A stretch of DNA of 64,000 bases, taken from assembly GCA_016125505.1 (NCBI GenBank), contig WGLP01000002.1, positions 992,001 to 1,056,000 on the forward strand, in the 5' to 3' direction. The position numbers and the translations under genes were made by a program. Below the pieces are notes generated by a model. The model ran no database searches, was not told where the DNA came from, and saw only the letters and a program-made list of their open reading frames with translations. Positions 39,180 to 44,224 of the stretch are shown here, in pieces. The stretch's first letter is position 1. Every line of letters begins with the position of its first letter. This stretch comes from Gammaproteobacteria bacterium (GTDB lineage: Bacteria > Pseudomonadota > Gammaproteobacteria > UBA6429 > Thiohalophilaceae).

Positions 39180-39932
39180 ATGACAAACAAGGTCAATCCA
39201 TATAGCGAAAATCAGGGACTCATGCTGGATGAGATGGTCGAGCAGCATGCCGGCCTTGTACAGCGGATTGCCTATCATCTTTCTGCACGTTTACCCGCCA
39301 GCGTGCTCGTTGATGACTTGATCCAGGCCGGTCTGATTGGCCTGATGGATGCCGTGAGTCATTACGACCCGACGCAAGGCGCCACGTTTGAAACCTATGC
39401 CGCGATTCGTATCCGTGGCGCCATGCTCGACGAATTACGCCGCAATGACTGGGCGCCAAAATCCGTCCATCGCAAATCCCGCGACATGATGTCGGCTGTC
39501 CACAGAATCGAGTCACGGACCAATCGGGATGCCCGTCCCCAGGAAATCGCCGAGGAGATGGGCATCAGTCTGGAGGAATACCACGAACTGGTACTGGAAA
39601 CGAATACCTGTCGGGTGTTGAATTTTGCCGATATGGAATACGAAGACCAGGACTTCACGGATACCGTGGCCGACACCCGCAGCAGCGGTCCCCTGGGCGG
39701 CATCCAGAAGGAAGAATTTCGCCGCTATCTTGCCGATGCCATCCGCAACTTGCCGGAACGCGAGCAACTGATTGTCAGCCTGTATTACGACGAAGAACTC
39801 AACCTCAAAGAAATCGGATGTGTCCTGGGGGTGAGTGAGTCCCGCGTCAGTCAATTATTGAGTCAGGCGCACATGCGCATGCGTGCCACGCTGGCGGAAT
39901 TTATCGAACCCGAATTACACGAAGCGGGTTGA
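39180..39932 (+). CDS. fliA: Flagellar sigma factor FliA (sigma28)
   Basis: 250 aa. It directs RNA polymerase to late flagellar and chemotaxis genes. Region 2 (LVDDLIQAGLIGLMDAVSHY, TFETYAAIRIRGAMLDELR), region 3 (RPQEIAEEMGISLEEY) and region 4 (LKEIGCVLGVSESRVSQLLS) are all present. It is placed directly after cheB, not after flhF-fleN as in Pseudomonas. A poor ribosome site precedes the ATG. Three or four sigma28-like promoters are seen in this window. Confidence 0.96.
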   Translation: MTNKVNPYSENQGLMLDEMVEQHAGLVQRIAYHLSARLPASVLVDDLIQAGLIGLMDAVSHYDPTQGATFETYAAIRIRGAMLDELRRNDWAPKSVHRKSRDMMSAVHRIESRTNRDARPQEIAEEMGISLEEYHELVLETNTCRVLNFADMEYEDQDFTDTVADTRSSGPLGGIQKEEFRRYLADAIRNLPEREQLIVSLYYDEELNLKEIGCVLGVSESRVSQLLSQAHMRMRATLAEFIEPELHEAG

Positions 39933-40078: not shown

Positions 40079-40104
40079 TAATAAATATTATTCACCGCCG
40101 ATGA
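40079..40104 (+). promoter_or_regulatory. Candidate sigma28 promoter of the membrane-VWA gene pair
   Basis: TAAT (40079-40082), 14 bases, GCCGATGA (40097-40104). The -10 matches the sigma28 consensus at seven of eight positions; the spacer is one base short. It lies directly downstream of fliA. A chance match is possible; such matches are expected about once or twice per strand in a window of this size. Confidence 0.4.
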
Positions 40105-40196
40105 TCTGTGAACCACTCGAGGGTTGCGATTGCATTCGCACTCTACTATTACTTTGAACTGGCAGGCGGCGGGGAACCGACTTTAGGAGGTCAATT

Positions 40197-41648
40197 ATGA
40201 ATCTTGGTGAGATGTTGATGATTGTTCCCAACCCAGTTCTGTCCGGCATCATCTGGCTCATTCTTCTGGTGCTGATCATGTACTTCGCGCGTTCACCCGC
40301 GCACTTCGCTATCCGTTCCTTCAGCCGGGTCATTCACAATGCCATGCGCCTGTCAGCGCGTGCGGTCATGCGTGCGGAAACCCGCCTCAATGAACGCAAT
40401 CGTGAAGTGATCCTGGCGCAGGGCCGAGAAGCGGCGGAGCGAATTATCGAACGTGAATTCGATCGCATCGACGCCACGGTGCGCCGTGACCTGGCCGAGT
40501 ATCCTGCGCTGCACCGCGTGCTCAGCGAAGAGATCACCGTTATCGACGAAGATTATAAAAACAGTACCGAAGTCCCGCCGGAACCGCCGGCGTGGGTCAA
40601 GGCGGTGGACGCCGTGGCCAAGATCCCCGGCAAGGACCCCATGGTGGCGAGTATCCTCGAAGACATTCACGGCTCCATGATCAAGGCCAATACCCAGGCT
40701 ATCGAGGAATACCGCAAGGCGAGCCATAAACGGCATGAACACCTGAAAAACATGATGCCGCACTGGCGCAAGGTGAAGTCGGTGCTGGGGCAGGTGGACA
40801 AGAGCGTGAACAGTTTGCTGACGCGCTCACAGACCATCGATCGTCATATGGAAGAGTACGAAGGCATCATCAAGAAATCGGATCGTGCCGTGCGGATGTT
40901 GTCGTCGTCCTCGCTGACGCAATTTTTCGTGTCGGCGTTTGTACTCGCCATCGCCGTCGGCGGTGCCTTGATCAACTTTAACCTGATTGCCCGGCCCATG
41001 GCCGAGATGGTGGGTGGCACCAGCCACATCATGGGTTTTCCCATTAACAACATCGCGGCGATGGTCATCATCCTGGTCGAACTTGCCATGGGCCTGTTCC
41101 TGATGGAGACATTGCGGATTACCCGGTTGTTCCCTGTGATCGGCGCACTGAACGACAAGACCCGTATCCGCCTGGTCTGGACCTTCTTTTCGATATTGCT
41201 GTTTCTGGCGTTTGTCGAGGCCGGGCTTGCCTTTATGCGTGAGCTGTTGATGCAGGATGCCGCTGCTACGCGGGCGGCACTGCGTGGTGATTCGAATACC
41301 GAGGTTATCAGCAACTCCGGTCTGTGGATCACGACCGCGGCGCAAATGGGCATGGGCTTTGTCCTGCCGTTTGCGCTGATGTTTGTTGCCATACCGCTGG
41401 AAACCTTTGTGCATTCCCTGCGTACGGTGCTGGGTATTGTCGGGGTCAGTCTGTTGCGGGTCTGTGCCTGGTCGTTGCGCCTTATCGGCAATGTGGTGCG
41501 TTTCGTTTCCAATGCGATGATCCAGTTGTATGACCTGATAATATTTGCTCCGCTGTGGGTTGAGCGCATGATCAAAAACAAAACCGAAGCCGTCAAGCAG
41601 GAAGAAGATGCGGCAAGCTCGGTGTATCTGGAAGGGAAAAAGATCTGA
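40197..41648 (+). CDS. Multi-pass membrane protein with long coiled coil, unknown function
   Basis: 483 aa, ATG after a strong AGGAGGT. Membrane segment 1 is at about residues 14-32; a long charged helical region follows (45-235, with AVMRAETRLNERNREVI and repeated heptads), then four or five further membrane segments (from about 240: FFVSAFVLAIAVGGALI; later MVIILVELAMGLFLME; FFSILLFLAFVEAGLAFM). The C-terminus is basic and cytoplasmic-looking. No family is recognised. The stop overlaps the start of a lipoprotein gene, so the two products probably work together. Possibly in the FliA regulon. Confidence 0.8.
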   Translation: MNLGEMLMIVPNPVLSGIIWLILLVLIMYFARSPAHFAIRSFSRVIHNAMRLSARAVMRAETRLNERNREVILAQGREAAERIIEREFDRIDATVRRDLAEYPALHRVLSEEITVIDEDYKNSTEVPPEPPAWVKAVDAVAKIPGKDPMVASILEDIHGSMIKANTQAIEEYRKASHKRHEHLKNMMPHWRKVKSVLGQVDKSVNSLLTRSQTIDRHMEEYEGIIKKSDRAVRMLSSSSLTQFFVSAFVLAIAVGGALINFNLIARPMAEMVGGTSHIMGFPINNIAAMVIILVELAMGLFLMETLRITRLFPVIGALNDKTRIRLVWTFFSILLFLAFVEAGLAFMRELLMQDAAATRAALRGDSNTEVISNSGLWITTAAQMGMGFVLPFALMFVAIPLETFVHSLRTVLGIVGVSLLRVCAWSLRLIGNVVRFVSNAMIQLYDLIIFAPLWVERMIKNKTEAVKQEEDAASSVYLEGKKI

Positions 41649-42295
41649 TGAAAAAGTTTGGTGTTCTACTCGTACTGGCGGTGGTCTGGTTGACCGCCTG
41701 TTCCAGGGATAACGGACCATACAACACCGGCGTGTATATGTTGCTGGATACCTCGGGTACGTACACCAATGAACTTGCGCAGGCACAGAAGATTATTAAC
41801 TTCATTCTGGCCAGGCTCAATCCGGGCGATGCCTTTGCCGTGGCGCAGGTCAACAGTGCCAGTTTTTCCGAGAAGGATATCATTCGCAAGCAGACCTTTG
41901 ATGATCGCCCAAGTATGGCCAACGAGCAGAAGCGTCGGTATCAGGAAGAAATTACCAAGTTCATCAAAGGCGTCAAACCCAGTTCGTATACCGATATTAC
42001 CGGTGGGTTGTTACAGGCTATCGAGTATCTCAATGAAGCGAATACAGGGCGCAAGATTGTTCTGATCTTTTCTGATCTAAAGGAAGAGTTGCGTCCCGGG
42101 TATGTACGCAATATTCCACTGCAGCTCAAGGGCTTTCAGGTGATTGCCGTGAATGTGACCAAGCTGCATTCGGATAATGTGGATCCGCGCGAATACATGA
42201 AGCGATTGCAGGAGTGGCAAAGCAAGGTTGTCGCCGGGGGCGGCAGCTGGAAAGTGATTAATGATCTGGAACGGCTGGATCCGATCTTCGAATAA
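41648..42295 (+). CDS. VWA-like lipoprotein
   Basis: 215 aa, start overlaps the upstream stop (ATGA). Signal peptide with lipobox LTAC (Cys18; Ser at +2, so outer-membrane sorting is expected). A VWA-like fold follows: VYMLLDTSGTY (metal-binding D34-x-S36-x-T38), a TDITGG segment for the third metal contact, and IVLIFSDLKEE for the fourth. The first MIDAS motif is DxSxT rather than DxSxS, which may still bind metal. Partner of the membrane protein encoded before it. Confidence 0.8.
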   Translation: MKKFGVLLVLAVVWLTACSRDNGPYNTGVYMLLDTSGTYTNELAQAQKIINFILARLNPGDAFAVAQVNSASFSEKDIIRKQTFDDRPSMANEQKRRYQEEITKFIKGVKPSSYTDITGGLLQAIEYLNEANTGRKIVLIFSDLKEELRPGYVRNIPLQLKGFQVIAVNVTKLHSDNVDPREYMKRLQEWQSKVVAGGGSWKVINDLERLDPIFE

Positions 42296-42321
42296 GGTTC
42301 CGAGACCAATACATTCCTCTT

Positions 42322-42349
42322 AGGGGGCGTATCTGTCAAGCCCTTTTTT
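42322..42349 (+). terminator. Rho-independent terminator after the VWA gene
   Basis: AGGGGGC (42322-42328) pairs with GCCCTTT (42340-42346), including two G-T pairs, and is followed by a run of Ts to 42349. It closes the two-gene unit. Confidence 0.65.
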
Positions 42350-42431
42350 ATAAGCCTTAATGTGAACATGCATCTGCGGTATGTCAAGGCTGGCAATTTC
42401 ACGATGGTCATGGAAAAATGAGTCGGCATAG

Positions 42432-42486: not shown

Positions 42487-42930
42487 ATGACACATTCAAT
42501 CGTAAAAGCCAGACGTTATAACCCTATGTGGTATTTTGAGCGCAACTATACTGCGCTGATTGAAATGCTGTGTCTGAGCCAGGTGTTGGAGCAGGGCAGG
42601 GTGGAATTTGAACTTGCCGGAAACCGGATCGAATTCGTTGTACTGGAACGCAGCCCGTATACCTTGCTGGTGAAGATCCGGCAAACGTTCATGCGAGGTG
42701 AGCAGTCTCCGCTCCTGGGTGAGCTGGAATTCAAAGTGCGGCTTTATCTGGATGCCAAACTGGCGGAGGTCGTCAGTTATCAGGGCCAGCAACCACGCGA
42801 GGCGCGCTATCCTTTTCCCAACAAGCATATGTTTCATCCGGACGAAAAACGTCAGACGAATCTGATTTTATACGACTGGCTTTCAAATTGTTCTCGACTA
42901 AACTTCATGGAGTCAGTCGCGTTCAATTAA
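42487..42930 (+). CDS. DUF1249 family protein (YqiB-like)
   Basis: 147 aa. The sequence follows E. coli YqiB/DUF1249: a YFERNYTALIEMLC region, a central beta-rich part (VVLERSPYTLLVKIRQTF) and the closing YPFPNKHMFHPDEKRQTNLILYDWL in pieces. The function of the family is unknown. In E. coli it is next to cpdA; not here. The candidate sigma28 promoter upstream is unexpected. Confidence 0.85.
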   Translation: MTHSIVKARRYNPMWYFERNYTALIEMLCLSQVLEQGRVEFELAGNRIEFVVLERSPYTLLVKIRQTFMRGEQSPLLGELEFKVRLYLDAKLAEVVSYQGQQPREARYPFPNKHMFHPDEKRQTNLILYDWLSNCSRLNFMESVAFN

Positions 42931-42970: not shown

Positions 42971-43627
42971 ATGAGTTATATCCGAGTCACCGGTCCCAGG
43001 CAGAGATTGCAGCGTTCGCTGGCCATTGTCGTCTTGAGTTTGATGATGGCGGGTAATGCCTTTGCCGATCGTGCTCAGGCACTGCAGGCGCAGGCACAGG
43101 GTGATTTTGCCAACGCCGCCAGGCTGTGGCTGCAACTGGCCAATGATGGCGATCCAGTTGCCCAATTCAATCTTGCCCTCTTGTATGAAAACGGAACCGG
43201 GGTTACTGCAGACACGAATCTCTATAAATACTGGCTGTCCATGGCGGCGCGTAAAGGTCTTGCCGAGGCCTACGCAGACGTGAATGCACAGGCTATACAG
43301 CCGACGGACAATCCAGCGGCGGTGACGATTGTCATGGGGCCCCAACAGTGGGTTGCAGTGCAGAATCCGGATTACTACACCCTGCAACTCGCCAGTAGTA
43401 CCAACAAAACCCTGATTGAAAAATATTACGAAGAAAATGAATTGACCGGCAAAGCCGGTTACTATCGATCACGGCGGTCTGGCGAGGATTGGTATGCCCT
43501 CGTGTATGGCGCCTATCCCTCGGTGCAGGATGCCAAGGCGGCCATAGACAATCTGCCGGAGGATTTGAAAAAGTGGTCACCCTGGGTCCGCAATATCAAA
43601 TCCATACACAAGATTATGGTTCGATAG
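42971..43627 (+). CDS. Exported Sel1-repeat / SPOR-domain protein
   Basis: 218 aa. N-terminal signal peptide (SLAIVVLSLMMAGNAFA), then a Sel1/TPR-like unit (LANDGDPVAQFNLALLYENG) at about 45-100, and a C-terminal SPOR domain (YYTLQLASSTNKTLIEKYY, then WYALVYGAYPSVQDAKAAI). SPOR domains bind stem-peptide-free peptidoglycan at division sites, so the protein is probably periplasmic and cell-wall associated. Confidence 0.82.
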   Translation: MSYIRVTGPRQRLQRSLAIVVLSLMMAGNAFADRAQALQAQAQGDFANAARLWLQLANDGDPVAQFNLALLYENGTGVTADTNLYKYWLSMAARKGLAEAYADVNAQAIQPTDNPAAVTIVMGPQQWVAVQNPDYYTLQLASSTNKTLIEKYYEENELTGKAGYYRSRRSGEDWYALVYGAYPSVQDAKAAIDNLPEDLKKWSPWVRNIKSIHKIMVR

Positions 43628-43668: not shown

Positions 43669-44058
43669 TTAGAGCTGAGATAACCGGGTCTTGATTTCAT
43701 CACGTAACCCATCCACCCATTGATGATAAACGGATGAAATGGATTTTCCGTCATATTGCATGTTATCGCTGTCGAGATATGTAATATTGAAGCTTGCGGT
43801 GTCAAAGGTAATATCGACTTTGGCCATACGCCCGCTATGGCGGCGTGTCGCAATGATGTGGCCTGCGCCCGCGATGGCGGGTTTCCAACCTTTAAACGCA
43901 CTCGCGGTGATGATGGTGCGCGTTACGCTGTCGAGCGTGGCGTTTTGAGATGCCGTGGAGAAAGGCGATTGTACGTCCAGCATATTACCGCCGCCGCAGC
44001 CGCCTGCAAATAGCGCAAACGCACACAACAATGAAACAGGGATAACATGCTTGACCAT
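43669..44058 (-). CDS. Small lipoprotein of unknown function
   Basis: 129 aa from the ATG at 44056-44058, which has GGAG six bases upstream; an ATG four codons earlier is less likely. Signal peptide with lipobox FAGGC. After the Cys comes a Gly-rich linker and a small domain (TIITASAFKGWKPAIAGAG, then KVDITFDTASFNITYLDSDN). No family is recognised with confidence. Convergent with the SPOR-domain gene. Confidence 0.7.
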   Translation of the reverse strand: MVKHVIPVSLLCAFALFAGGCGGGNMLDVQSPFSTASQNATLDSVTRTIITASAFKGWKPAIAGAGHIIATRRHSGRMAKVDITFDTASFNITYLDSDNMQYDGKSISSVYHQWVDGLRDEIKTRLSQL

Positions 44059-44224
44059 ACCGGACTCCATGGGCTTAATGTAATAAATTTACTTCGATTA
44101 TCCGGATAACTATAGTTCATCTAAATAAAGTGAGTCCAGTAGGCTGGGGTATTGTCTGGCATGGACGTGTGCAAAGTGTGACCCGGCGCTAATAACGAGA
44201 CAGGATGACAGCAGGATCATAGGC

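Follow-up and report, generated by a model that had tools for sequence, protein, structure and literature searches.

CglB, a gliding adhesin of Myxococcus, carries a VWA domain with a MIDAS (PMC13104615), and Bd0875, a predation adhesin of Bdellovibrio, has a lipobox and a MIDAS of the form D-x-S-x-S that is required for function (PMC11003981). LiaFSR, a three-component envelope stress system of Bacillus, shows that kinases of the intramembrane type can have an accessory membrane protein as partner (PMC3543457). A further system with a VWA protein as target is the proteobacterial dedicated (marine) sortase system (TIGR03784/03785/03787/03788). The gene pair analysed here encodes a membrane protein (MP) and a VWA lipoprotein (LP) and resembles each of these systems in part; no description of it was found in the open-licence literature. 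LP shares with CglB and Bd0875 the envelope-exposed VWA domain. In contrast to both, it is a bare VWA domain of 215 aa with neither a cap nor a small beta domain, has an obligate partner in MP and shows no tie to motility or predation genes.

The pair is located on contig C2 of genome G000, within the stretch of 64,000 nucleotides that was analysed as a whole (the window); the family of this genome includes Thiohalophilus. A preliminary description of the DNA had proposed a membrane protein and a VWA lipoprotein at this place, and indeed both reading frames are present and conserved far beyond chance (Table 1). They share a single base (TGATG, base 41648) and not four, as had been stated; an overlap of four bases does occur in some relatives (L035). 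A terminator shared by the two genes had also been suggested. A hairpin with a U-run does follow LP; it is of unremarkable stability (z = -0.8) and does not appear among the terminators listed by the scan. The Rfam scan of the region gave no match.

Table 1 Features of the window in and around the MP-LP pair
Feature	Position	Strand	Basis or remark
Second FliA-family sigma factor, neighbour outside the module	39180..39932	+	passes FliA family cut-off
sigma28-like TAAT-N14-GCCGATGA	40079..40104	+	noted in the preliminary description; weak
TCTGTGAACCACTCG element, pair-associated, in the window's family	40105..40119	+	conserved in 18 loci
MP, 483-aa inner-membrane protein	40197..41648	+	ORF, profile searches, AF2, hydropathy
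LP, 215-aa VWA lipoprotein	41648..42295	+	ORF, profile search, AF2, MIDAS alignment
Possible weak intrinsic terminator after LP	42322..42350	+	7-bp stem, 11-nt loop, U-run
DUF1249 (YqiB-like) gene	42487..42930	+	frequent downstream neighbour, window's family only
Sel1/SPOR-domain protein	42971..43627	+	frequent downstream neighbour, window's family only

LP passes the cut-off of the Pfam family VWA_2 (PF13519; 30.4 vs 27 bits, 6.4e-7), and its AF2 model is a confident VWA fold (pLDDT 89) with 91 matches in the PDB at E<=0.001 (best 8e-7), the top ones being mostly VWA-type or VWA-containing proteins. The MIDAS is intact (D34-x-S36-x-T38, T115 and D143) and highly conserved among the aligned rows of 117 LPs, with D34 in 117/117, S36 in 115/117, T38 in 112/117, T or S at position 115 in 114/115 and D143 in 114/114. 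The lipobox cysteine C18 is invariant in an alignment of 29 members. A strict lipobox pattern is present in 99 of the 117 LPs, and the exceptions displayed also have the cysteine. The residue following this cysteine (+2) is a serine in the window and in 60 of the 99 strict-lipobox LPs, and an aspartate in four of the 99. By the Lol rule, which was derived from E. coli, a serine at +2 directs a lipoprotein to the outer membrane, and LP is probably located in the outer membrane, facing the periplasm. The VWA-like outer-membrane lipoprotein of the preliminary description is thus confirmed in its fold, metal site and lipobox, and its location is predicted from the serine.

Searches of Pfam and NCBIfam gave no match to MP above cut-off, and those of PADLOC and PHROGs weak matches alone; for the 29 aligned members of its family, matches are scattered and weak and fall mainly on coiled-coil families. 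The earlier statement that no family is recognised therefore holds for MP in these HMM searches. By hydropathy averaged over the family and the positive-inside rule, MP is predicted to have an N-terminus outside and five transmembrane (TM) helices (approximately residues 13-31, 243-261, 285-303, 329-347 and 387-405), beside which a hydrophobic or amphipathic C-terminal segment is found at 411-429; seven membrane segments, as first proposed, are not predicted. The predicted periplasmic loops lie at approximately residues 262-284 and 348-386. The coiled coil, formerly given as ~190 residues and as either cytoplasmic or periplasmic, was recovered as a helical domain, but of ~210 residues (32-242) and cytoplasmic by charge. 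The AlphaFold2 model of MP is nearly all-helical (pLDDT 82, pTM 0.54). A Foldseek comparison with the PDB, of a kind that coiled coils weaken, found nothing at E<=0.001 (best E 0.13), and the matches obtained, mainly to coiled coils and TTYH with a TM-score of ~0.15, were dismissed as noise. A phage origin was rejected, as there was neither a PHROG nor a viral fold match for MP, and so was a defence system, because the sole PADLOC match is weak and falls on the coiled coil.

Three acidic residues of MP (E295, E304 and E341) are invariant and located within or near the predicted TM helices. Together with the canonical MIDAS of LP and the adhesin function of the VWA proteins CglB (PMC13104615) and Bd0875 (PMC11003981), they would fit a surface-exposed MIDAS adhesin, for which MP serves as inner-membrane anchor or energising partner in the manner of a small focal-adhesion or stator-type complex. 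Such an arrangement appears improbable, since LP is a minimal VWA domain without additional ligand or surface domains, genes for a translocon or for glycans are not recurrent nearby, and the PDB, which covers stator proteins, gave no fold match for MP. Searches of Pfam, NCBIfam and the PDB (E<=0.001) likewise gave no match of MP to the ion-driven stators MotA, TolQ or ExbB, although this is a weak test for a coiled-coil protein.

Both genes have a wide distribution. LP is encoded directly downstream of MP for 117 of 132 distinct MPs. Seven of the remaining 15 stop at a contig edge, and eight come from divergent lineages without a recognisable LP, two of which still possess an overlapping lipoprotein whose MIDAS is unrecognisable. 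Divergent second-copy or relative modules in which the overlap of MP and lipoprotein was kept and the MIDAS was lost are found at L150:9499-10143, L151:7198-7833 and L146:2853-3470. MP was detected in 39 and LP in 38 of 58 relatives, and within the class of the window MP is present in 52 of 370 genomes (~14% of the sample). One pattern-limited scan of a genome collection yielded 515 MP loci, some of them labelled Alphaproteobacteria and Mariprofundaceae; the taxon labels of MAGs may be wrong, and contamination may affect some. MP and LP thus form a unit whose two genes are nearly always passed on jointly in a wide range of proteobacteria. Despite the occurrence of the pair in hundreds of their genomes, MP is without a family name or a fold match. 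Genome G047 contains two copies of the pair (L025/L030 and L031), which belong to different clades of the MP tree. Apart from LP, no neighbour is conserved throughout the loci compared, and besides LP, the kinase and regulator described below (two-component system, TCS), fliA, che, DUF1249 and Sel1-SPOR genes, no neighbour recurs beyond local synteny.

The preliminary description located the pair right behind fliA and derived from this a motility or envelope role under sigma28 control. The upstream neighbour does belong to the FliA family, but it is a second paralogue, 53% identical to the canonical FliA of the same genome (G000:C22:149201-149896; L166:8684-9424). The latter is encoded in the cluster flhB-flhA-flhF-fleN-fliA-cheY-cheZ-cheA-cheB-motCD (genes read from the sequences). 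Genome G000 encodes two sigma factors of the FliA family and contains two sets of chemotaxis genes, but the FliG_C search finds a single FliG; the second FliA is common to most genomes of the family. A role of the pair as a sigma28 (FliA)-controlled accessory of motility or chemotaxis would agree with the adjacency of fliA in 30 of 80 loci from genome contigs, with the sigma28-like site in the window (p = 0.04) and with the occurrence of FliG in 40 of 52 genomes with MP against 169 of 318 without (Fisher p = 0.0014, a value that ignores phylogeny). A weak correlation of MP with flagella therefore remains. However, the adjacency is mainly confined to the family of the window and patchy on the MP tree, where it needs at least seven changes. 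Moreover, 12 of the 52 genomes with MP have no FliG, and at least ten near-complete ones among those re-tested (G001, G047, G055, G109, G175, G200, G222, G246, G310 and G378) have no FliG, FlhA or flagellin; G055, G109 and G310 among them are single contigs. The MP of G222 is of the divergent type without a recognised LP, and the two copies of the pair in G047 coexist with no FliA-grade sigma factor. Genome G018 has kept MP without FlhA and flagellin.

The putative promoter gave a similar picture. The -10-like GCCGATGA is present at 40097-40104 with TAAT 14 nt upstream, as had been noted, but it is weak (p = 0.04 by shuffling) and missing in the closest relatives (L002-L005), whose MPs are 75-79% identical, as well as in most other loci; a comparable site precedes approximately six of 24 fliA-adjacent loci. 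At the same stringency, the window contains 13 sigma28-like sites against one to four in shuffled sequences. Several of the 13 are located inside genes, including two overlapping ones within MP on the opposite strand. Neither a conserved sigma28 promoter nor a restriction to flagellate genomes, as would be expected for a member of a FliA regulon, was found. On the basis of flagellar markers, tree, promoter conservation and paralogue context, the link to motility and FliA was rejected as a general explanation, and a role as FliA-dependent accessory is very unlikely for the pair; the flagellar genes beside it are a misleading clue. In L197, L198 and L199 (G001, G055 and G018), a FliA of the canonical type, 53-56% identical to that of the window, is encoded in genomes without FlhA and flagellin, which also have no FliG where tested; FliA needs another job there. 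The FliA of G055 adjoins a FleN/ParA-like ATPase.

In divergent members of the family, inspection of the neighbourhoods revealed that the pair is accompanied by genes for a histidine kinase and a response regulator. The regulator (E<=1e-60) occurs in 12 of the 370 genomes of the class, all 12 with MP (Fisher 1.8e-11, ignoring phylogeny and with a query taken from a pair-linked locus), and the kinase (1e-50) in 11 genomes, all with MP. The regulator adjoins the pair in ten of the 12 genomes and is 1.8 kb off in G292 and ~7 kb off in G079. The TCS-linked MPs form one clade of the MP tree with a support of 100 and members in at least nine families. All 12 kinases of this clade contain an H-box and two TM helices separated by 12-21 residues and hence belong to the intramembrane-sensing type; the regulators combine a receiver, conserved in the region of its Asp, with an OmpR/PhoB-like winged helix.

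The intergenic regions between regulator and MP contain GTGAAAA/TTTTCAC in 9/9 cases (shuffle maximum 5) as part of the direct repeat TTCAC-N6-TTCAC. Its period of 11 bp is that expected for a regulator of the OmpR/PhoB type, which may bind there. With a score of at least 11/13, the box is present in all 12 TCS loci at -65 to -122 from MP and in the same orientation toward it, including the three loci (L162, L163 and L164) whose regulator gene does not diverge from MP. Among 169 upstream regions of non-TCS loci, near-duplicates included, just two reach such a score, both on the opposite strand. Across the 12 TCS genomes the exact box occurs 14 times, eight of them at the pair, and the reversed pattern three times. 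A perfect box away from the pair (L201, G271:C109:14975-14990) is located near a small gene (1480-2067) for a possible secreted protein; it may mark a second target, although a clear one was not recognised.

With the LiaFSR system the TCS loci share an intramembrane-type kinase, a putative accessory membrane protein and a regulator predicted to induce a membrane module, and the kinases of the clade match the LiaFSR type in having two TM helices with a short loop between them, here of 12-21 residues. The differences are accessory proteins unrelated to those of LiaFSR, an OmpR/PhoB-like regulator, a Gram-negative host and the involvement of a lipoprotein. The sortase system is similar in that TIGR03787 weakly matches the regulator, TIGR03785 the kinase and TIGR03788, its VWA target, LP. 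These scores are far under the cut-offs (38.6 vs 335.7, 30.5 vs 612.2 and 18 vs 551.7 bits, respectively), LP is a lipoprotein and no feature of a sortase substrate was seen in it; membership of TCS and LP in that system was rejected.

Regulator, kinase and box were all missing from the lineage of the window in searches for the two proteins and in box scoring, and the clearest functional evidence therefore comes from relatives. As the pair is inherited jointly, also in genomes without flagella, and has its own sensor and regulator in one large branch, it probably represents a system of the cell envelope that has not been described before, rather than a set of motility genes. This agrees with the undescribed two-part envelope system of the preliminary description, which the conserved pair, an MP without family and a MIDAS-VWA lipoprotein support. 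The best explanation overall, which we hold to be evenly balanced between right and wrong, is a single envelope module that is induced by the TCS in one clade. In such a module, LP would bind an envelope ligand through the metal site of its MIDAS, and contact with the short periplasmic loops of MP would couple this binding across the periplasm to the cytoplasm. The coupled proteins may sense or stabilise the envelope, with MP relaying or resisting envelope strain. In one clade, the intramembrane-type kinase and the OmpR/PhoB-like regulator would induce the module via the TTCAC-N6-TTCAC repeats before MP; in the lineage of the window, where the dedicated regulator is missing, control would be different.

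The box makes the pair an output of the TCS, from which a role as sensor does not follow. Nevertheless, the kinase is almost devoid of a periplasmic domain, having 12-21 residues between its TM helices, is strictly tied to the pair and is of a type that an accessory membrane protein can serve, as in LiaFSR (PMC3543457). MP, informed by LP, might thus control the kinase as LiaF controls LiaS, and the box would provide feedback. We consider a sensor arm of this kind rather unlikely, since 40 of the 52 genomes with MP have the pair without this TCS, which requires a use independent of it, and since the box makes the pair at least an output. Returning to the TCS-induced envelope module, a wider reading, tentative and a little short of even, regards the pair as a widespread undescribed proteobacterial system in which a lipoprotein with a MIDAS-type VWA domain and an MP of new fold, with five helices and a coiled coil, span the periplasm; in one ancient clade the two would form a four-gene stress circuit with their own intramembrane kinase and an OmpR/PhoB-like regulator acting on TTCAC-N6-TTCAC, and other clades, including that of the window, would have been rewired to other control. 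With such a module, the known systems that sense or stabilise the envelope would gain one based on a MIDAS metal site. Kinase, regulator and box offer a directly testable entry, with one promoter, one regulator and one stimulus screen.

In the family of the window, the TCTGTGAACCACTCG element (also written TCTGTGAACC or TnTGTGAACCnnTnGGC) is kept upstream of the pair in otherwise unalignable sequence, also in L037, where fliA is not adjacent. No regulon of TnTGTGAACCnnTnGGC became apparent, as the exact pattern is found just sporadically elsewhere than at the pair. The core of the element equals the TTCACAGA half-site of the TCS clade in reverse complement, perhaps by chance. Further downstream in the window (43669-44070, minus strand), a small gene opposite the Sel1-SPOR gene encodes a lipoprotein-like product that belongs to no recognised family; counterparts with 31-35% identity occur in L034 and L040.
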